From NCBI RefSeq assembly GCF_030845995.1, contig NZ_CP132719.1:1922001-1986000 (forward strand): a stretch of DNA of 64,000 nt, read 5' to 3'. The notes beneath the pieces are model-generated. The model made no database searches, was not told the origin of the DNA, and saw only the letters and a program-made list of their open reading frames with translations. This stretch comes from Geothrix sp. 21YS21S-4 (GTDB taxonomy: Bacteria > Acidobacteriota > Holophagae > Holophagales > Holophagaceae). This document shows positions 322 to 12,318 of this stretch, piece by piece (positions within the stretch are counted from its first letter, which is position 1; every line of letters begins with the position of its first letter). The position numbers and the translations under genes were made by a program.

Positions 322-594
322 TCACTTCTTCTTCGCGTCCTTGGCCTCGATGCTGCTGGCCACCTGCCGGTAGGTCACGGTGACCTTGTTCCCCACCTTG
401 AGGGCCTCCTTGCCGCTGGTGCCGCCCTCGGTGTAGAAGCGCCACTCCTCCTTCCCTAGGTCGAGGGTGAAGCTGTCGCCGGACAGCTCCTTCACGACTC
501 CGGTCTTCTGGTACTTGGCGGCGGCCGCGGCCCATCCCAGGGCGCCGCCGAGCACGGCGACGGCGGACAGCACGACGAGCGGTTTCAGGCGCAT
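322..594 (-). CDS. Small exported protein of unknown function
   Basis: A 90-residue protein with a signal-peptide-like N-terminus (MRLKP, then a hydrophobic Ala/Val/Leu run to about residue 25). A compact beta-rich segment follows, with alternating hydrophobic and charged residues (GVVKEL, SFTLDL, VTVTYR), and the protein ends in a lysine-rich tail. The pattern resembles small periplasmic OB-fold-like proteins, but no named family is recognised. A GAGGAGA ribosome-binding site sits just upstream of the ATG. The gene follows the IspH-UbiA fusion on the same strand after about 37 bases, so co-transcription is possible. Confidence 0.7.
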   Translation of the reverse strand: MRLKPLVVLSAVAVLGGALGWAAAAAKYQKTGVVKELSGDSFTLDLGKEEWRFYTEGGTSGKEALKVGNKVTVTYRQVASSIEAKDAKKK

Positions 595-631: not shown

Positions 632-2353
632 TCAGACCAGCGCCAACAGCCCCACCAGCCAGAAACTCAGGTCCACGCTCAGTTCGAAGCGCGTCTTCCC
701 CGTGGTGAACCGCTCGTGGTACAGCCACAGGTACAGCACGGGATAGGCGGCGCAGATCACCAGGACGAGCGCGACGATCAGGGGATGGCCCTGTTGGCGG
801 GTATTGAAGGTGAGCCACAGGGTGCCCGCCAGCAGCGTTCCCAGCAGGGCGAGGAGAATGGCCTTGGTGGCGGGTTTCCCCAGAAAGATGGGGAGGGTCT
901 CCTTCCCGATGATCTGATCGTTCTGCATGTCGCGGATCTCGTAGATCACGGTGCGGACGAAGGTCAGAACGCCGACGAGGAACGCCGCGGCGAAGGCGCG
1001 GAGGTTCCAGGGGCGGCCCGCCTGCCACATGGGCATGACCACCGCGACCGTTGCCAGGGCCAGGGCCACCACCGCGTCCTTGGAGCCGGGGATGTTCCGC
1101 AGGCTGACGCTTCGGCCGCCGACCAGGAAGCGGCGCTTGTAGGCGACGCCCACCAGGCTGGCCGCGGCCATCACACCGAGCGCCTTCGCCCCCAGCGTGG
1201 CGGCCAGTCCCAGGGCGGCGGCCAGGGCGGCCATACCGGTAAGAAGGAGGGCCATCCGGTTCCGCGACAGGAAGCGCGCGCGAGCGGGTCCCTTCGCGCC
1301 GAGCCCCAGGGGATCGAGGAAGGGCGTCAGCAGGTACATGGCCAGAACGTAGGTGCCCACGAGAAGGGGATAGCGCCAGCCGAAGGGAAAGCCGAGCCAC
1401 TTGTGGACGCCCAGGGTCATCAGCCCCGCGCCGATCGCCAACAGGGAGGAACTGCCGAAGGCCGCCTGCACGAAGCTGCGCCAGCGACTGGGGCCGTCGC
1501 CGAGCTGTTCGAGCACATCCACCACTTCGTCCACGAGCCAGGTGGGCGTGGAGGCGCCCGCCAGGACGCCCACGGTCTCGCGACCGGTGAAGGCGGTCAC
1601 GTCCAACTCGGCGGCCGTCTCCACGTACTGCACGGGCTTCCCATAGTGGTGGGCCAACTCGGCCAGGTGCTTGGTGTTGCTGGAGGCCTTCCCGCCGACC
1701 ACGATCACGGCATCCACGGTTTGGGCCAGTTGCCGGGCCTCGTCCTGCCGCATCCAGGTGTCCTCGCAGATGGTGTTCTCGAAGACGGCGTCCTTGGCCC
1801 GGGTGCGGATGTAGTCGGTGATGGCGTGGTAGTCCTTCACGGTGAACGTGGTCTGGGCCACCACCAGCACCTTCTTGAGCTGCTCGTCCGTGAGGGCCTC
1901 GGCCTCGGCCATGTTCGCGACGATGACGGAGCCGCTGTCCGCGAAGCTGCGGTGGGCGACGCTCTCCGCATGGCCGTGGCTGCCCAGGATCACGGTGAAG
2001 TAGCCCTTGGGGCTCCACTTCTTGATCTTGTTGTGGACCTTGGCGACCTCGGGACAGGTCGCGTTCACGATCTTCAGTTCGCCCTTGGCCTGGCGCGCCT
2101 TCAGCCCGCGCAGATCCTGGATGGGGATGCCGTGGGCGCGGATCACGACCGTCCCGTTCTGGACCTGGTCCGGCGCCGGCGCGACCGCCACGCCCCGCTT
2201 CCCGATGAGATCCAGGGCCTGGGGATTGTGGATGAGGGGCCCGAGCGTCTGGACCGGGCGCCCGTCGTTCCGCACCGACGCCTCCAGCACCGCGTCCATG
2301 GCGCGCTTGACGCCCCAGCAGAACCCCGCGGTCTTGGCGACGATCACCTTCAT
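632..2353 (-). CDS. ispH: IspH (HMBPP reductase) fused to a UbiA-like membrane prenyltransferase domain
   Basis: Residues 1-285 are a complete IspH, the last MEP-pathway enzyme, which reduces HMBPP to IPP and DMAPP. The three 4Fe-4S cysteines are C12 (GFCWGVKRA), C100 (NATCPEV) and C196 (NTICEDT). H42, H74, H128 and E130 match the substrate-binding His residues and the catalytic Glu, and QTT and SSNT motifs are present. Residues about 295-573 are hydrophobic, with some seven or eight membrane segments, and resemble UbiA prenyltransferases: DMQND (475-479) followed by GKETLP matches the second Asp-rich motif. The usual first motif, NDxxDxxxD, is not visible at its expected place (about 345-365), so catalysis by this half is uncertain. 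IspH is normally about 300 residues, so the fusion is clear and lies in one frame. Confidence 0.93.
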   Translation of the reverse strand: MKVIVAKTAGFCWGVKRAMDAVLEASVRNDGRPVQTLGPLIHNPQALDLIGKRGVAVAPAPDQVQNGTVVIRAHGIPIQDLRGLKARQAKGELKIVNATCPEVAKVHNKIKKWSPKGYFTVILGSHGHAESVAHRSFADSGSVIVANMAEAEALTDEQLKKVLVVAQTTFTVKDYHAITDYIRTRAKDAVFENTICEDTWMRQDEARQLAQTVDAVIVVGGKASSNTKHLAELAHHYGKPVQYVETAAELDVTAFTGRETVGVLAGASTPTWLVDEVVDVLEQLGDGPSRWRSFVQAAFGSSSLLAIGAGLMTLGVHKWLGFPFGWRYPLLVGTYVLAMYLLTPFLDPLGLGAKGPARARFLSRNRMALLLTGMAALAAALGLAATLGAKALGVMAAASLVGVAYKRRFLVGGRSVSLRNIPGSKDAVVALALATVAVVMPMWQAGRPWNLRAFAAAFLVGVLTFVRTVIYEIRDMQNDQIIGKETLPIFLGKPATKAILLALLGTLLAGTLWLTFNTRQQGHPLIVALVLVICAAYPVLYLWLYHERFTTGKTRFELSVDLSFWLVGLLALV

Positions 2354-2445: not shown

Positions 2446-5400
2446 TCAGTTGACGTACCAGTCCGTCCCGTCGCAGACGAGTTCCATGGGAGCCAGGAAA
2501 ACGCCCAGGATGTTGTAAAGGAGGCTGGACAGCAGGGTTCCAAGCCCCGTGCGCCCATCGCGGATGCTGCCCGACAGCGTGAAGGAGTAGGAAGTCGGGA
2601 GGAGGGTGATGATCCGATTGGCGCTGGTGGCCGGGTTGGGGAGGGTGATGGTGGCCCCGCTGTTTCGGAGGACGAGGTAGCGGTCCCCGGCCTGCACCGT
2701 GTAGTTGGCGGTGATCTTGATCACGGTGTTGGAGATGTTGCCCCCGAGCACAGCAGCCCACGTGCCGTCCGCCTTGAGGAATTTTCCGCCCGCCGCATCG
2801 CCGGAGGCCGGCGCCGGGGCGATGCCGGCGGTTCCGCCGGAGCCGCTGTCCCCCACCAGGACGGGCAGCCGTGCCACCCCCACGGTGCCGGTGGAGAGAT
2901 TGGAGGCGCTGATTCCCGTCAGCGAGGCGCCGCTGCCGCTGAAGGCCGTGGCGGTGACGGTGCCCGCGGTGAAGTTGCCGGAGGCGTCCCGCGCCACGAT
3001 GGCGTTGGCCGTGTTGGCGGACGTGGCCGTGGTCGCGCTGTTGGACACTTTGCCCGCCGTCGCGACGGTGGCGAGGTTGGTGTCCGCCAGGCTGCCGGTG
3101 ACTTCCGAAGCCAGGTTCACCGAACTGCCGTTGGAGGCAGCGGTAACGCGCCCCTGGGCATCCACGGTGATGTTGGCCCGGGTGTAGGCATTCGGCGTCA
3201 CCGCCGTATTGGCGAGGGCGATGGTGCCGCTGCTGGAGATCGTTCCCCCTGTGAGGCCCGTGCCCGCGGTGATCCCCGTGACGGTGCCGGCGTTGATCGT
3301 CGTCCCGTTGACCCGGAATCCGCCGCTGATGTTCACGTCCCCGGCCACGTCCAGGGCGTAGCCCGGCGTGGACGTACCCACGCCCACCCTGCCGGTGCTG
3401 AGGATCACCACCTTCGGGGTGCCCGCCGAATCCGGATCCCCCTGGGCGGCGTTCGACACATGGATGCCCAGGGCGCCGGAGCTCACTCGATCCGCCGTGA
3501 TGCCCCAGTTGCGGGCCGTGCTGACGGCGCTTTCGCTGCCCAGCCGGAACTGCGGTCCCGCGGTGCCGTTGCCGGCGAGGCGGATGCCGTCCGAATTGCT
3601 GCTCACCACCACGTCGAGGGCTTTGGTGGGGGAAGTCGTGCCCAGGCCCACCTTCCCGGCCGTATAGACCACGTCGGACCCGTTCAGGGTCAGGGGACTG
3701 GCTCCCGTCGCGCCTGTGGCGCCAGTCGCACCCGTGGGACCCGTGGCGCCGGTGGCTCCCGTCGCTCCGGTCGCGCCCTGGGCACCCTGCGGCCCCTGGG
3801 GGCCGATCAGGGAAACGGGCACCGGCCACGCTCCGCCGGCCTTGGGGCCGTAGAACTGCGATGTGGCGGTGTTGAGGTAGAAGTCCCCGTTCGTTCCCAG
3901 CGAGACGGAAGGCGCGGTCGTCCCATTGAGAACCGTCTTCCCGTCCAGACCGACCGCACCAGCGGCGCCCGTCGCACCCGTGGCTCCCGTCGCGCCGGTG
4001 GCGCCCTGGGGTCCCTGGATGCCCTGGGCCCCCTGCGGCCCTACGAGAGAGATGCTGGACGGCCAGACGCCGCTCGATTTGGGGCCATAGATCTGGGAGG
4101 TGGCGATGTCGATGTAGAAGTCGCCGTTGATGCCGAGACCCGCCGAGGGAATGCCGGACCCGCTGAGCACGCTCCTTCCATCCGCGCCCGTGGCACCCGT
4201 GGCGCCCGTCGCACCGGTGGGCCCGGTCGGTCCAGCCCCGCCGGTCGCGCCGGTCGCGCCCGTCGAACCCGTGGCTCCCTGCGGCCCCTGGGGACCCACC
4301 AGGGAAACGCTGGTGGACCACACGCCCGCGGCCTTGGGCCCGTAGATCCGGGAAGCGGTGGTGTCGACGTAGAAATCGCCGTTCGTGCCCACCCCCACGG
4401 AGGGCGCGCCGCTCCCGTTCAGGATCGACCTCCCGTCGAGGCCGGCAGCTCCGGTGGCTCCTGTCGCGCCGGTGGCTCCCGTGGGCCCCGTGGCGCCGGT
4501 CGGCCCGGCGACGCCGGTGGCTCCGGTCGCACCCGTGGCGCCCTGCGGTCCCTGGGCACCGATCAGGGAGGTCCCGGCGAGCCACACGCCGCCCGCCTTG
4601 GGACCGTAGATCTCGTGCGCCGCGGTATCGATGTAGAAGTCGCCGTTGGAGCCCGTGCCCGCTCCGGGCACACCCGTGCCCGTGAGGACGCTCCGGCCGT
4701 CGGCGCCCGCGGGGCCCGCCGCGCCGGTGGCTCCCGTCGCGCCGGTGGCGCCTGTCGGTCCCGCAACGCCGGTCGCCCCGGTGGTGCCCTGGGGTCCCTG
4801 CGGCCCGACCAGCATGATCCCGATCGGCCAGATGCCGCCGGCCTTGGGCCCGTAGAGTTCGGGAATGGCCGTGTCGACGTAGAAATCGCCGTTGGCTCCG
4901 GTTCCCGCCGAGGGGGCACCGACGCCGCTCAGCAGCGTCCGTCCGTCGAGCCCTGCCGCACCCGTGGCCCCGGCCGCACCGGTAGCGCCCGTCGCGCCTG
5001 CGGGTCCGGTAGCGCCGGCAGCGCCCGTGGCCCCCGTCGCGCCCTGGGCGCCCTGCGGCCCCACGAGGGAGACGCCGGCGGGCCAGGCGCCCCCGGCCTT
5101 GGGTCCGTAGATCCGGGAGGCGGCCACATCGACGTAGAAGTCCCCATTGGCGCCCAGGCCGGCGCCCGGCGCTCCGGATCCGTTCAATACGCTCTTTCCG
5201 TCAGCCCCGGCAGCACCCGTGGCCCCCGTCGCTCCCACAGCGCCTGCCGGTCCCGCGGGACCAGCCACCCCTGCCACGCCCTGGGGACCCTGCGAGCCCA
5301 CCATGGACAAACCCGTGGGCCAAAGGCCACCCGTCTTGGGCCCGTAGATCTCCGCCGTGACGGTGTCGATGTAGAAGTCGCCATTCACGCCCAGGCCCGC

Positions 5401-8400
5401 GGAAGGAACGCCCATCCCGCTCAAGAGGCTCCTTCCGTCCGTTCCAGCCGGACCGGCAGGGCCGGTGGCCCCCGCCGAACCCGGCGTCCCCGCCGCACCG
5501 GCCACCCCTTGGACGCCGACCATGGAGACGCCGGGAGTGGGCCAAGCCCCCCCGGACTTGGGCCCGTAAATGCGGAAGGTCAGGGTGTCGATGTAGAAGT
5601 CCCCCTCCCCTCCCACACCCGAACCGGGCGCTCCCGCGCCATTCAGGACCGCTTTCCCGTCCACTCCGCCTGACGGCCCCGTGAGCCCCTGAGGACCGGC
5701 GGGCCCCTGCGGCCCGACAAGGGAGATGCCCGGCAGCCACGCGCCGGCCGTCTTGGGGCCGTAGATCGTGGCCGTCAGCGTGTCGAGGTAGAAGTCCCCA
5801 TCGGTGCCCACTCCCACGCCGGGGGGCACGAGACCGTTCAGGATCGTCTTGCCGTCGATTCCCCCCGAGGGGCCGGCAGGTCCCGCGGCGCCCGTCGCCC
5901 CCTGAGGGCCCGTGGGACCGATGAGGGAAACGCCCACGGGCCAGAGGCCGCCGGCCTTGGGGCCGTAGATCGCGGCCGTCAGCGTGTTGATGTAGAAGTC
6001 CCCGTCCGCGCCCAGACCCGCGCCCGGGGCCACAACACCGCTGAGGACGCTCCGTCCGTCCGCGCCCGCAGGACCCGCGGCTCCCGTCGCTCCGGTGACG
6101 CCCTGGAGTCCCTGGGGACCCACCATCGAGACGCCCACCGGCCAGATGCCCGCAGCCTTGGGCCCGTAGACCTTGGACGTGAGCACGTCGATGTAGAAGT
6201 CCCCATTCGAGCCCGCCCCGGAAGAAGGCACGCCCGCACCGCTCAGCAGGCTCCTTCCGTCCGCGCCCGCGGCCCCGGCCGCGCCGGTCGCACCCGCGAC
6301 TCCCGTGGCGCCCGTCGCTCCCGCGATGCCCTGGGAGCCTTGAGGTCCCTGCGGCCCGACGAGCGAAAGACCCGCGGGCCAGACGCCCGCGGCCTTGGGC
6401 CCATGGATTTCAGCCGTGGCGAGGTTGATGTAGAAATCGCCATCGACGCCCGCGCCCGAGGACGGTGCTCCGGACCCGCTGAGAAGGGTCTTTCCGTCCA
6501 CGCCAGCCGCCCCGGCGGCTCCCGTGGCGCCCGCCGCGCCCGTCGCGCCGGTCGCCCCCGTGGCGCCCGCGACCCCGGCAGGTCCCGCGGGGCCCTGCGC
6601 TCCGATGAGCGAGACGCCCGCGGGCCACACGCCGCCCGCCTTGGGTCCGTAGAAATGGGAGGTCGCGACGTCGAAATAGAAATCGCCATTGTTGCCGGCG
6701 CCGGACGAAGGCGCCCCCGATCCGCTCAGAACGCTCTTCCCGTCGACGCCTGCCGCGCCTGCCGCCCCCGTGGCGCCCGCGACTCCCGGGGCCCCGGCCG
6801 CACCGGTGGCGCCCGTAGCGCCCGTCGTGCCCTGCGGTCCCTGGGCCCCCACGATGGAGATCCCCACGGGCCAGATCCCGGCCGCCTTCGGTCCGTAGAG
6901 ATGGGAGGTGGCGACATCGATGTAGAAATCACCGTCCGCTCCAGCGCCCGAAGAAGGCGAGCCCGACCCGCTAAGGAGCGTGCGGCCATCCACACCGGGC
7001 GTTCCCGCCGCCCCCGCCACGCCGGTGGCCCCCGTCGGACCGGTGGCGCCGGGAGCCCCCGCCGCACCCGTCGCCCCGGTGGCACCCGCCGCCCCCGCGG
7101 GTCCCTGCGGCCCCTGGGAGCCCATCAGCGATACCCCGGCGGGCCACACGCCACCCGCCTTGGGACCGTAGAGATGGGAAGCGACAACATCGACGTAGAA
7201 ATCGCCGTTCGCCCCAGCTCCCGAAGAAGGCGCGCCGGATCCGCTGAGGAGCGTTCTGCCATCCACGCCCGCTATCCCCGTGGCCCCGGTGGCTCCTGGA
7301 GCCCCGGGACTGCCCGCGGGACCCGTCGCGCCGGCGGGGCCCGTGGCTCCGGCAGGACCCGCCACGCCCTGGGGGCCCTGGGCTCCCACGAGGGAGACGC
7401 TGATGCTCCAGACGCCTCCGAGCTTGGGCCCGTAGAGCCTGTCGCTCGCGGTGTCGAGGTAGAAATCGCCATCGGCGCCGAACTCAGAGGGAGGAGCGCC
7501 GGCCCCGCTCAGTACCGTCCGCCCATTGGCTCCGCCAGGGCCGGCCGGTCCTGTGGGCCCCACACCGGCAGGCCCGACGAGGGAAACGGGAGGAGGCCAG
7601 ACGCCCCCGCCCTTGGGGCCGTAGAGCAGGGCCGTGGTGGTATCGATGTAGAAATCGCCGTTGATGCCCAGCCCCACGGGCGGCGCGCCCATTCCGCTCA
7701 GCATGCTCTTTCCCTCGGGCCCCGCGGGACCCATCGGGCCCGTGGGACCCGCCGATCCAGCCACGCCCGCGGGCCCCGCAGGTCCCACGGGGCCCTGGCT
7801 GCCCATCAGGGACACGCCGACCGTCCAAACGCCATTCGCTTTGGGGCCGTAGATCTGGGAGGTGACCGTGTCGATGTAGAAGTCCCCATTGGTGCCCAAA
7901 GACACCGAAGGGGCTCCGATTCCCGTCAGGATCCCTTTCCCGTTGGCCCCCGCGGGTCCCGCCGCCCCTGCGGGGCCTGCCGGACCGGCGGGACCCGCGG
8001 GCCCTTCAGGCCCGGCCGGACCCACGGGGCCGATGCTGCCGCTGATGCTGGCCGGGATCCACTGGGCGCCGTCGAAGGTCAGGATTTGGCCCGTCAGCGG
8101 AGTGTGGTTGGTGAAGTCGATGGGCACGCCCTGGATCCGGCTGACGGCCATCTCCCCTTGGGTGCCCGTCACGTCTCCGGCGAAGGGGCCGACCACTTCC
8201 CAGGCCGCGCGGGCCTGGAAGGAGGGCACCAGTTCCACGTCGGGGCTCAACTGCCAGCCGCCGACATTCACCCGCAGCTTGATGTTGGAGATGCTGAGCG
8301 CCGACGCGGGAATGGCCGGCATGCCGGAGGAGCCGAGAACCACGGAATAGAGCCCGTTTTCCAGCGTGAGGGTCTGGGGGCCCGAATTCCAGAGTTCGGT

Positions 8401-8595
8401 GCCGGAGGTGTCCCAGAGGGAGAACACGAAACTGCGGGGCCCGTTGATGGGAACGGAGGCTTCCAGCAATCGGCCCTGGTACGCCAGCAGCGGGAGCGGA
8501 GTCGGATCCGCCTGGGCCGTGGGGACTTTGGACTGTTGGGCCACGAGACAGATGGCGCTGAGGCTGAGGGCCGCGGGGAGGGAAATGCGTCGCAT
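2446..8595 (-). CDS. Giant exported collagen-like protein with 18 GDFY-GPK modules
   Basis: A 2049-residue protein with a signal peptide ending near AQADP (about residue 30). Residues 35-180 form a conserved N-terminal domain (LAYQGRLLEA, then FSLWDTSGTELW) of the kind found ahead of phage-tail- or collagen-like repeats. From about 183 to 1635, Gly-X-Y collagen stretches rich in GATGA and GPAGP alternate with 18 copies of a roughly 50-residue module whose core is GDFYID, YGPK, G-W and SL-G. Residues 1635-2049 are a tail-fibre-like C-terminus with VDAQGRVTAASNG and GKFLKADGTW motifs, probably a trimerisation or adhesion head. Collagen-like bacterial proteins form trimeric surface filaments; the role here (attachment, aggregation) is inferred. 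It follows a barrel protein and a lipoprotein on the same strand. Confidence 0.9.
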   Translation of the reverse strand: MRRISLPAALSLSAICLVAQQSKVPTAQADPTPLPLLAYQGRLLEASVPINGPRSFVFSLWDTSGTELWNSGPQTLTLENGLYSVVLGSSGMPAIPASALSISNIKLRVNVGGWQLSPDVELVPSFQARAAWEVVGPFAGDVTGTQGEMAVSRIQGVPIDFTNHTPLTGQILTFDGAQWIPASISGSIGPVGPAGPEGPAGPAGPAGPAGAAGPAGANGKGILTGIGAPSVSLGTNGDFYIDTVTSQIYGPKANGVWTVGVSLMGSQGPVGPAGPAGVAGSAGPTGPMGPAGPEGKSMLSGMGAPPVGLGINGDFYIDTTTALLYGPKGGGVWPPPVSLVGPAGVGPTGPAGPGGANGRTVLSGAGAPPSEFGADGDFYLDTASDRLYGPKLGGVWSISVSLVGAQGPQGVAGPAGATGPAGATGPAGSPGAPGATGATGIAGVDGRTLLSGSGAPSSGAGANGDFYVDVVASHLYGPKAGGVWPAGVSLMGSQGPQGPAGAAGATGATGAAGAPGATGPTGATGVAGAAGTPGVDGRTLLSGSGSPSSGAGADGDFYIDVATSHLYGPKAAGIWPVGISIVGAQGPQGTTGATGATGAAGAPGVAGATGAAGAAGVDGKSVLSGSGAPSSGAGNNGDFYFDVATSHFYGPKAGGVWPAGVSLIGAQGPAGPAGVAGATGATGATGAAGATGAAGAAGVDGKTLLSGSGAPSSGAGVDGDFYINLATAEIHGPKAAGVWPAGLSLVGPQGPQGSQGIAGATGATGVAGATGAAGAAGADGRSLLSGAGVPSSGAGSNGDFYIDVLTSKVYGPKAAGIWPVGVSMVGPQGLQGVTGATGAAGPAGADGRSVLSGVVAPGAGLGADGDFYINTLTAAIYGPKAGGLWPVGVSLIGPTGPQGATGAAGPAGPSGGIDGKTILNGLVPPGVGVGTDGDFYLDTLTATIYGPKTAGAWLPGISLVGPQGPAGPQGLTGPSGGVDGKAVLNGAGAPGSGVGGEGDFYIDTLTFRIYGPKSGGAWPTPGVSMVGVQGVAGAAGTPGSAGATGPAGPAGTDGRSLLSGMGVPSAGLGVNGDFYIDTVTAEIYGPKTGGLWPTGLSMVGSQGPQGVAGVAGPAGPAGAVGATGATGAAGADGKSVLNGSGAPGAGLGANGDFYVDVAASRIYGPKAGGAWPAGVSLVGPQGAQGATGATGAAGATGPAGATGATGAAGATGAAGLDGRTLLSGVGAPSAGTGANGDFYVDTAIPELYGPKAGGIWPIGIMLVGPQGPQGTTGATGVAGPTGATGATGATGAAGPAGADGRSVLTGTGVPGAGTGSNGDFYIDTAAHEIYGPKAGGVWLAGTSLIGAQGPQGATGATGATGVAGPTGATGPTGATGATGATGAAGLDGRSILNGSGAPSVGVGTNGDFYVDTTASRIYGPKAAGVWSTSVSLVGPQGPQGATGSTGATGATGGAGPTGPTGATGATGATGADGRSVLSGSGIPSAGLGINGDFYIDIATSQIYGPKSSGVWPSSISLVGPQGAQGIQGPQGATGATGATGATGAAGAVGLDGKTVLNGTTAPSVSLGTNGDFYLNTATSQFYGPKAGGAWPVPVSLIGPQGPQGAQGATGATGATGATGPTGATGATGATGASPLTLNGSDVVYTAGKVGLGTTSPTKALDVVVSSNSDGIRLAGNGTAGPQFRLGSESAVSTARNWGITADRVSSGALGIHVSNAAQGDPDSAGTPKVVILSTGRVGVGTSTPGYALDVAGDVNISGGFRVNGTTINAGTVTGITAGTGLTGGTISSSGTIALANTAVTPNAYTRANITVDAQGRVTAASNGSSVNLASEVTGSLADTNLATVATAGKVSNSATTATSANTANAIVARDASGNFTAGTVTATAFSGSGASLTGISASNLSTGTVGVARLPVLVGDSGSGGTAGIAPAPASGDAAGGKFLKADGTWAAVLGGNISNTVIKITANYTVQAGDRYLVLRNSGATITLPNPATSANRIITLLPTSYSFTLSGSIRDGRTGLGTLLSSLLYNILGVFLAPMELVCDGTDWYVN
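3690..8040 (-). repeat. 18 tandem modules inside the collagen-like gene
   Basis: The YGPK codons recur near 7849, 7614, 7430, 7160, 6887, 6641, 6397, 6158, 5958, 5752, 5560, 5336, 5099, 4844, 4600, 4339, 4081 and 3841, an average spacing of about 236 bp (79 residues). Each unit is one Gly-X-Y stretch of variable length plus one conserved module. Modules 4-7 share the linker SG(S/A)PSSGAG and look like the youngest duplications; modules 1-3 and 9-11 are more diverged. Repeated recombination between units is the likely source. Confidence 0.85.
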
Positions 8596-10086: not shown

Positions 10087-12318
10087 TCAGTCTTCGGCCA
10101 CGGCAAAAGCGGGGGCCGGAACCGGATCTTCCGCGAGGGGTTCGGAGGCTTCGGCGCTCCTCCATCCCCACGCGCCGATGACGGCCTTGAAGGTGAAGAG
10201 GATGACCGCCAGGGCGCCGAGCCCGAAGAGGATGTCGCCGGGCATGCGCATCCAGGTGAAGGCGCGCATGAGCGGGCTCTGCACCACGTCGGCGCTCCGG
10301 GCGTACCAGGTGCCGTGCTCGAGGCTCTGGGCGATCTGGTAGAACCCGCTGGGGACGAGCGAGCAGGCCAGCATCAGGATCAGCCCCAGGTTCAACCCCC
10401 AGAACCCGAACTTCAGCCACTTCTCGTCCCAGGCCTTGTCCGGCGTCATGCCGCGCAGCGCGAACAGCATGAGGGAAATCGCCAGGAAGCCGTAGACCCC
10501 GAACAGCGCGGCGTGGCTGTGGATGGGCGTGGTGTTGAGCCCCTGCCCAAAGTAGAGGACCGACGGCGGATTGATCAGCATCCCGAAGACGCCCGCGCCC
10601 AGCAGGTTCCAGAAGCAGACGGCGGCGAAATACTTGAACGGCCACTCGTAGCCGCTGCCGAGGGCGCGGCCGGCCTTGAGGCTCTGGGCGATCTCGAAGC
10701 CCACGATGGTGAGGGGCACGATCTCCAGGGCGCTGAACACGGAACCCAGCGCCGAGATGGAGGAGGGCGAGCCGGTGTAGTAGAGGTGGTGGAACGTGCC
10801 GATCACGCCGCTGCCGAGGAAGAGGCCCATGGAGAGGCTGACGGCGCGGAGCGCGGTGCCCTCGCGCAGCAGGCCCATGCGGGTGGACAGCAGCGCGATG
10901 GCCACGGTGGCGAAGACTTCGAAGAAACCCTCCACCCAGAGATGGACCACCCACCAGCGCCAGTACTCGGCGAGGGCGATGTGGGTCTCGCGGGTGTACA
11001 TGAAGCCCGCGGAGTAGAACAGCGGAATGGCGATGGCGGACAGCACGAAGAGCTTGAGCAATCCCAGCCGGCCCCGCTCGCCGCGCAGGGCGGGCAGGAG
11101 CGCACGCAACACCAGCACCAGCCAGCCGATCATTCCCACGGTCAGCAGGATCTGCCAGAGGCGACCCAGTTCCACGTACTCGTAGCCCTGGTGGCCCAGC
11201 ATGAAGGAGCCCGACAGCCTACCGAGGATCGCCTGGTGGGCGCCGGCCAGCGCGCCGACCACCACCACCACGAGCGCGGCGAGCAGCCCGGCCACGCCCA
11301 GCCACTGGCCCTTCGGCTCCTTGGCGCTGAGCTTCGGCCCCAGATAGAGCCCCGTGGCCAGCCAGCAGGTGGCGATCCAGAAGACCGCCAGCTGGAGATG
11401 CCAGGTGCGGGACGCGGCGTAGGGGAGGATGCGGGACAGGTCCACGCCGTAGAGGGCGTTGCCTTCCACCGCGTCATGGGCGGTCAGGACGCCCATCCCG
11501 ATCTGCACCAGGAACAGGGCCATGGCCACACCGAAGTAGAGGGCGGACCAGCGCTGGCTGGGCGTGGCGGGAGCGGGCGGGATGGGCTGGGGATCGGGGA
11601 ATTCCTCCGCCGGCTGGCTGGCGTGGTGCCAGATCATCAGGCCCACGCCCAGGATCAGGAGAATGATGGAGAGGATGCTCCAGAGGTGGCTGATGGGCGT
11701 GATGCTGTTGCCCACGAGCGATTCCTGGGGCCAGTTCTGGGTATAGCTGTGATCGGCGCCGGGCCTGCGGGCCGAGGCGGTCCAGGCCGTCCACAGCCAG
11801 AAGTCGGCCACGCGCTCGCCTTCCTCCATGACGGGAATCCAGCGGGCGGGAATCGCGGCGCTCTTGTCGCCCTCGACCGCGATCTTGGCCAGTTCGGCGC
11901 GGGTGCGGAGGTAAGCGGCGGCCTGCGCGCCCGACAAGGTCAGCGTGGCGCTCGATGAATCATACCTATTTATCTGAAATATGGACGCGGTTTGCGCCTT
12001 GGCGTCGGCGAGGGATCCCCCCGCGGCCTTCACGCCTTCGAGGGTGTGGGAAGCCCACTGGTGCAGCGCCTTCGCCGTCCAGTCCGGGGCGAGGTAGGCG
12101 CCGTGGCCCCAGATGGAGCCGATGTGCTGTCCGCCGTGGCCCAGGTAGCTCTTCTGGCCTTCCATGATCTGTCCGGGCCCCACCAGCACGGTGCCGTCCT
12201 CGGCCACCACCCGCTGAGGAATGGGCGGCGCGTTCTGGGCGATCTGCCGCCCCCCCAACCCCAGCACGCCGAAGCCCGCCAGGAGCACCAGCAATACCCC
12301 CCACCATCGACCTTTCAT
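10087..12318 (-). CDS. norB: Quinol-dependent nitric oxide reductase (qNOR)
   Basis: A 743-residue membrane enzyme that reduces two NO to N2O with electrons from quinol. Length and layout match qNOR: one N-terminal helix, a periplasmic domain (about 35-215) with the conserved GQKSYLGHGG and WGHGAYLAPDW segments and the YTQNWP motif, then about 13 helices with the haem-copper-oxidase-type core. No CxxCH haem c motif is present, so it is the single-subunit quinol type and not cNOR. It uses the ATG at 12318 with a GAGGAGG site. The gene stands alone with its own terminator and no nor accessory genes, as is common for qNOR used in NO detoxification or anaerobic respiration. Confidence 0.95.
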   Translation of the reverse strand: MKGRWWGVLLVLLAGFGVLGLGGRQIAQNAPPIPQRVVAEDGTVLVGPGQIMEGQKSYLGHGGQHIGSIWGHGAYLAPDWTAKALHQWASHTLEGVKAAGGSLADAKAQTASIFQINRYDSSSATLTLSGAQAAAYLRTRAELAKIAVEGDKSAAIPARWIPVMEEGERVADFWLWTAWTASARRPGADHSYTQNWPQESLVGNSITPISHLWSILSIILLILGVGLMIWHHASQPAEEFPDPQPIPPAPATPSQRWSALYFGVAMALFLVQIGMGVLTAHDAVEGNALYGVDLSRILPYAASRTWHLQLAVFWIATCWLATGLYLGPKLSAKEPKGQWLGVAGLLAALVVVVVGALAGAHQAILGRLSGSFMLGHQGYEYVELGRLWQILLTVGMIGWLVLVLRALLPALRGERGRLGLLKLFVLSAIAIPLFYSAGFMYTRETHIALAEYWRWWVVHLWVEGFFEVFATVAIALLSTRMGLLREGTALRAVSLSMGLFLGSGVIGTFHHLYYTGSPSSISALGSVFSALEIVPLTIVGFEIAQSLKAGRALGSGYEWPFKYFAAVCFWNLLGAGVFGMLINPPSVLYFGQGLNTTPIHSHAALFGVYGFLAISLMLFALRGMTPDKAWDEKWLKFGFWGLNLGLILMLACSLVPSGFYQIAQSLEHGTWYARSADVVQSPLMRAFTWMRMPGDILFGLGALAVILFTFKAVIGAWGWRSAEASEPLAEDPVPAPAFAVAED

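Follow-up and report, generated by a model that had tools for sequence, protein, structure and literature searches.

An IspH-UbiA fusion gene in Geothrix and its relatives, with lineage-clustered loss of Mg2+ ligands in the UbiA half

Geothrix sp. 21YS21S-4 encodes an HMBPP reductase (IspH) that continues, in the same reading frame, into a membrane domain of the UbiA family. Our preferred reading, to which we give an even chance of being right, is that this protein is an IspH tethered to the membrane by a UbiA scaffold, and that the prenyl transfer of this scaffold has been weakened or lost in this lineage. The gene lies in the window (i.e., the whole stretch of 64,000 nucleotides analysed here) on the minus strand, as a single frame of the 573 codons originally predicted between positions 632 and 2353. 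A search of the organism's own genome, a single contig of 3.08 Mb, found one LytB gene, and this fusion is the cell's only HMBPP reductase gene. The fusion protein is 89% identical to its counterpart in G. fermentans DSM 14018, and its nearest named relatives are Geothrix. The gene and its parts are as follows:

632–2353, minus strand: ispH-ubiA fusion gene, 573 codons plus stop, with full-length homologues elsewhere
1505–2353, minus strand: IspH/LytB domain (HMBPP reductase), residues 1–283, from Pfam, TIGR00216, PDB 3dnf and a fold match
1493–1504, minus strand: linker of about four residues (284–287) from IspH to the first membrane helix, from the AF2 secondary structure
635–1492, minus strand: UbiA-fold membrane domain, residues 288–573, nine helices, from Pfam UbiA, the AF2 model and the match to 4OD5

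No promoter or terminator consensus was found near the gene. Directly upstream, on the same strand, lies a gene for a collagen-like protein of 2049 aa (window positions 2446–8595), with Pfam Collagen matches in eight stretches and repeated cassettes of about 246–264 bases; just downstream is a gene for a 90-aa protein (322–594, minus strand) with an N-terminal signal-like stretch and no Pfam match. The window also contains a gene for a nitric oxide reductase subunit B (743 aa; 10087–12318, minus strand), with a cytochrome c-like domain (PF22085) and a COX1 domain (PF00115).

IspH, normally a soluble protein, is essential and serves as a drug target. The LYTB family (PF02401) matches residues 3–281 of the fusion protein (E = 7.5e-80; 268.5 bits versus a cut-off of 24.5), and the IspH half passes the curated threshold of TIGR00216, ispH_lytB (255.4 bits versus 187.85). 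It also matches PDB 3dnf among solved structures (1e-50), and structure comparison of the first half of the predicted model gave E. coli IspH as the best fold match (Z 31). The three presumed cluster cysteines are located as follows:

2318–2320, minus strand: Cys12, presumed 4Fe-4S ligand, invariant in 49 of 49 fused proteins
2054–2056, minus strand: Cys100, presumed 4Fe-4S ligand, invariant in 49 of 49 fused proteins
1766–1768, minus strand: Cys196, presumed 4Fe-4S ligand, invariant in 49 of 49 fused proteins

The protein has these cysteines together with the substrate-binding His, Glu, Thr, Ser and Asn residues of IspH/LytB, so that the original description of an intact IspH stands. Alongside C12, C100 and C196, the residues H42, H74, H128, E130, T169, S224, N226 and S268 are kept in all 49 fused proteins, and T168 is kept in 48, with Ser in the single exception. 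As a member of this family, the IspH half would be expected to carry a 4Fe-4S cluster and to produce IPP and DMAPP.

The second half belongs to the UbiA superfamily by both sequence profile and predicted helical fold. Pfam UbiA (PF01040) matches residues 369–551 (E = 1.6e-12; 47.7 bits versus a cut-off of 34.2). In an AlphaFold2 model built from 21 fused homologues (pLDDT 84.1, pTM 0.77), the last IspH helix ends at about residue 283 and nine helices span residues 288 to 571, one more than the eight first proposed for what had correctly been called a UbiA-like domain. The best PDB match of this half is ApUbiA (4OD5; Z 18.1, 3.3 Å over 248 residues), and AfUbiA (4TQ3) follows with Z 16.7. The soluble prenyl synthases have the same fold and rank below the UbiA homologues, at Z of about 15 and lower. 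The match to 4OD5 excludes a second half structurally unrelated to UbiA, as far as the predicted structure goes, and no support was found for a channel, one of the roles initially considered for this domain. If IspH is joined to a true UbiA fold, as the model indicates, it must sit at the membrane, which supports the earlier proposal that the fused domain holds it there; the C-terminal domain would fix IspH permanently to the cytoplasmic face.

Full-length fusions were identified in 23 of the 25 genomes of the genus (the other two genomes have a completeness of 72% and 86%), and all listed genomes of a sister family have them too, at 33–39% identity; in a third family of the class, IspH stands alone, unfused. 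The full-length frames in the genus and the sister family exclude a frameshift or stop between residues 285 and 300, which had been named as an outcome that would overturn the fusion. The broader explanation that assembly or annotation has run two genes together we regard as having a negligible chance of being correct: dozens of independent genomes from several phyla share the uninterrupted frame, and nothing was found in favour of an artefact. Of 297 sampled Acidobacteriota genomes, 36 gave a match in a profile search with the UbiA half, always with the best match inside a frame of at least 571 residues; matches also came from 19 of 24 genomes of a phylum with records titled Nitrospinota/Nitrospirae and from 11 of 77 genomes of a phylum with a record titled "Nitrospinia bacterium OFTM173". 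In the five unmatched genomes of the phylum titled Nitrospinota/Nitrospirae, LytB was absent or represented by an edge fragment only; these genomes therefore give no example of unfused IspH. Across about 400 genomes of the three phylum-level groups, this UbiA type was never clearly found as a stand-alone copy. Three short frames in the phylum titled Nitrospinota/Nitrospirae, one of them of 320 aa (L109), were considered as stand-alone copies and rejected as fusions cut by contig ends, and a 274-aa UbiA protein in genome G352 (E = 2e-16) was treated as another UbiA type; a separate 293-aa LytB is present in that genome. One assembly of the genus contains a second, diverged IspH-UbiA-like frame of 525 aa (L151; G299:C73:8059-9579), representing either contamination or a paralogue.

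Distances between IspH halves and between UbiA halves are correlated across the 49 fused proteins (r = 0.82), and the trees of the two halves have 16 of 22–23 well-supported splits in common. Of the four conflicting pairs of splits, three lie among close Holophagaceae, and the fourth is deep and involves the fast UbiA lineages. The agreement between the trees is compatible with one ancient fusion event followed by joint inheritance of the two halves; transfers between groups may also have occurred.

The direct Mg2+ ligands of AfUbiA are N68 and D72 (motif I) together with D198 and D202 (motif II), and D76 binds only indirectly; alanine in place of N68 or D72 abolishes GPP binding, alanine at D198 or D202 weakens it 45- or 21-fold, respectively, changes at equivalent positions destroy EcMenA activity, and Y139 is likewise needed (PMC4106721). 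The corresponding region of the fusion protein contains four features:

1286–1327, minus strand: degenerate Asp motif I, T343-PFL-D347-PLG-L351...P356, which aligns with NxxxD in related fusions
1139–1141, minus strand: Tyr405, invariant (49 of 49), probable active-site Tyr (Y139 of AfUbiA), from a profile alignment with the Tyr of 4tq3
1076–1093, minus strand: conserved loop IPGSKD (421–426) with Lys425, which is invariant in 49 of 49 fused proteins
917–931, minus strand: Asp motif II, D475-MQN-D479, with D475 in 44 and D479 in 47 of 49 fused proteins

Motif II of UbiA enzymes (DxxxD) is present as D475 and D479, followed by GKETLP exactly as first read. Motif I (NDxxDxxxD) is absent in its enzyme form; initially described as not visible, it is indeed degenerate, but it can be seen as T343-x3-D347-x3-L351. 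One of the four direct Mg2+-ligand positions is altered (Asn to Thr343) and the other three are kept, as are Tyr405, the probable counterpart of AfUbiA Y139, and Lys425, in a loop conserved among the fusions as IPxSK. Across the 49 fused proteins, a set that includes draft assemblies and lies outside the Desulfobacterota (the subject of a 2015 paper), all four positions are kept in 23 and at least one is missing in 26; the third carboxylate of motif I is absent from every one of the 49, none having Asp at the position of AfUbiA D76. Substitutions in motif I replace the Asn with Thr, Ala, Ser, His or Tyr and the Asp with Glu, Asn, Arg or Ser; those in motif II (D475 to Glu, Ile, Val, Asn or Ser; D479 to Asn) occur in a few Acidobacteriota only. 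Mapped on the IspH tree, ligand loss takes a minimum of five changes, compared to about 16 with shuffled labels, and is therefore clustered by lineage. Two Holophagaceae proteins (L027 and L065) retain the Asn of motif I, and fusions from the groups titled Nitrospinota/Nitrospirae still have N, D, D and D. The stand-alone MqnP-type UbiA enzyme served as a control: in 27 of 27 genomes from the same class, none of its five motif residues has changed.

The effects of changes at these positions in AfUbiA and EcMenA (PMC4106721) count in favour of weakened or lost prenyl transfer. A role of the UbiA half as platform or sensor gains support because the IspH residues are kept while more than half of the fused proteins lose one or more ligands. 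Given the range of the fusion and the pattern of loss, we infer that, for this lineage, such a role is no less likely than prenyl transfer. A stronger version, which we hold only tentatively, is that the UbiA half is a recurrently arising pseudo-prenyltransferase, a UbiA fold long retained in evolution as a membrane sensor or anchor controlling IspH, in which catalytic metal binding would have been lost independently in several lineages and which was never separated from IspH.

Across 15 Geothrix genomes, the UbiA half has a dN/dS of 0.205, compared with 0.10 for IspH and 0.135 for the MqnP-type UbiA enzyme; in 91% of pairs, the UbiA half also has a higher dN than the MqnP-type enzyme. The ratio of UbiA to IspH distances is 3.65 in Holophagaceae, versus 1.43–1.54 in the two larger groups whose ligands are intact; the smaller ones range between 1.1 and 2.9. 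Together with the ligand loss, this raised ratio bears out the early suspicion that the domain is diverged, and part of the faster change of the UbiA half may come from the different constraints that act on a membrane domain. A dN/dS of about 0.2 shows clear purifying selection on the UbiA half, so the domain is doing something. This has a bearing on the explanation that the domain is an inert anchor that merely places IspH at the membrane, for example near an electron donor, a role for which any hydrophobic bundle would do: repeated loss of the metal ligands with retention of the domain is in its favour, but the invariant Tyr405 and Lys425, the conserved IPxSK loop and the dN/dS value point to a specific binding or contact function and make an inert anchor improbable.

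The genome contains three other UbiA genes. The first belongs to the TIGR01475 subfamily, which includes MqnP; the second is heme-O-synthase-like, below the cut-off of that model. The third (L003 1273-2280; C1, about 1611215–1611922) has NSAFDRDEGD as motif I and adjoins an ORF that resembles DUF116 by eye. Two genes of the MqnA/MqnD family are also present; menaquinone synthesis would therefore have no obvious need of the fused domain. No neighbour genes are shared between phyla with the fusion, and each lineage has its own set. In one intact-ligand clade, a gene for a Methyltransf_2 O-methyltransferase (plus dimerisation domain) starts 8–37 bases downstream of the fusion (L183, L185, L208 and L209); such a gene also adjoins the fusion in L109 and is absent beside it in L083 and L184. 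In the sister clade, where motif I is broken, the neighbours are instead parA-parB-like, as judged by reading their sequences. Both genera of the Holophagaceae sister family (L202 and L203) have a Xylose-isomerase-like TIM-barrel gene directly upstream, and the fusion is followed by a ResB-like gene in several Holophagaceae outside Geothrix.

IPP and DMAPP usually pass first through a soluble chain-elongating synthase, so direct channelling from IspH to the UbiA half is not obvious. This weighs against a rival that we consider possible but somewhat doubtful, in which the UbiA half is an active, diverged prenyltransferase that would use an acceptor and a prenyl diphosphate derived from IspH's products, with the fusion raising local precursor supply, as proposed by Rao et al. 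(2015; PMC4746011). The initial idea that the fusion places IspH beside a user of its products amounts to the same proposal. An active enzyme would be in line with the conserved motif II, Tyr405 and Lys425, with the UbiA fold and purifying selection, and with the N, D, D and D of the groups titled Nitrospinota/Nitrospirae, several members of which have the adjacent O-methyltransferase; the altered Mg2+-ligand position here and the losses in other fusions, the missing third carboxylate and a rate of evolution above that of a true UbiA enzyme speak against it. Several of the same observations count against weakened transfer, our preferred reading: three of four ligands, Tyr405 and Lys425 remain, Thr343 could still be helping, L027 and L065 keep the Asn within Holophagaceae, the UbiA half is under purifying selection, and an O-methyltransferase beside the fusion in an intact-ligand clade is as expected for an active biosynthetic enzyme.

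IspH-UbiA fusions have been described previously, contrary to the novelty first implied for this protein. Rao et al. (2015; Chem Sci, PMC4746011) reported 47 such "Rosetta stone" fusions, all from sulfate-reducing anaerobes, with a C-terminal UbiA-like domain (PT_UbiA_5) that has two DXXXD repeats and is predicted to be membrane-bound; expression gave mostly truncated protein, and the role was left without assignment. Among the other papers searched, one has the fusion term, in its reference list. The Geothrix protein has the same domain order but, unlike those fusions, only the second DXXXD, the first motif being degenerate; the hosts here are Acidobacteriota (Geothrix and relatives) and groups titled Nitrospinota/Nitrospirae, and ligand loss is recurrent among the fusions compared here. 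Compared with AfUbiA and ApUbiA, the protein shares the nine-helix fold, motif II and, probably, the active-site Tyr, but the N..D..D of motif I is T..D..L, the domain is fused to IspH, and identity is only 13–15%. The IspH-RPS1 fusions of clostridia also join IspH to a large C-terminal partner, which there consists of S1 repeats rather than a membrane domain; Pfam gave no S1 match in the Geothrix protein, and NF000907 (NCBIfam, IspH-RPS1) matches the IspH part only (266 bits versus a cut-off of 624). The finding is thus a correct observation of a published kind of protein, to which the range and the ligand-loss pattern are additions; both the range, covering Holophagaceae, sister Acidobacteriota and two further groups, and the erosion of the UbiA half go beyond the main text of Rao et al. 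(2015).

A membrane-tethered IspH with weakened or lost prenyl transfer, the reading preferred here, would have arisen when a prenyltransferase was fused to IspH once, at an early date; its Mg2+-diphosphate site would then have been partly lost in Holophagaceae and, independently, in other lineages. The UbiA half would now be mainly a membrane platform: it may anchor IspH, or it may sense or bind an isoprenoid diphosphate or lipid on behalf of IspH. Its prenyl transfer may be weakened or gone, with residual activity possible. A set of bacteria would in this way tie the normally soluble IspH to the membrane via a UbiA scaffold, and the gradient from members with all ligands to members without them provides natural variants able to separate an active prenyltransferase from a platform or sensor, the question left by the 2015 paper.
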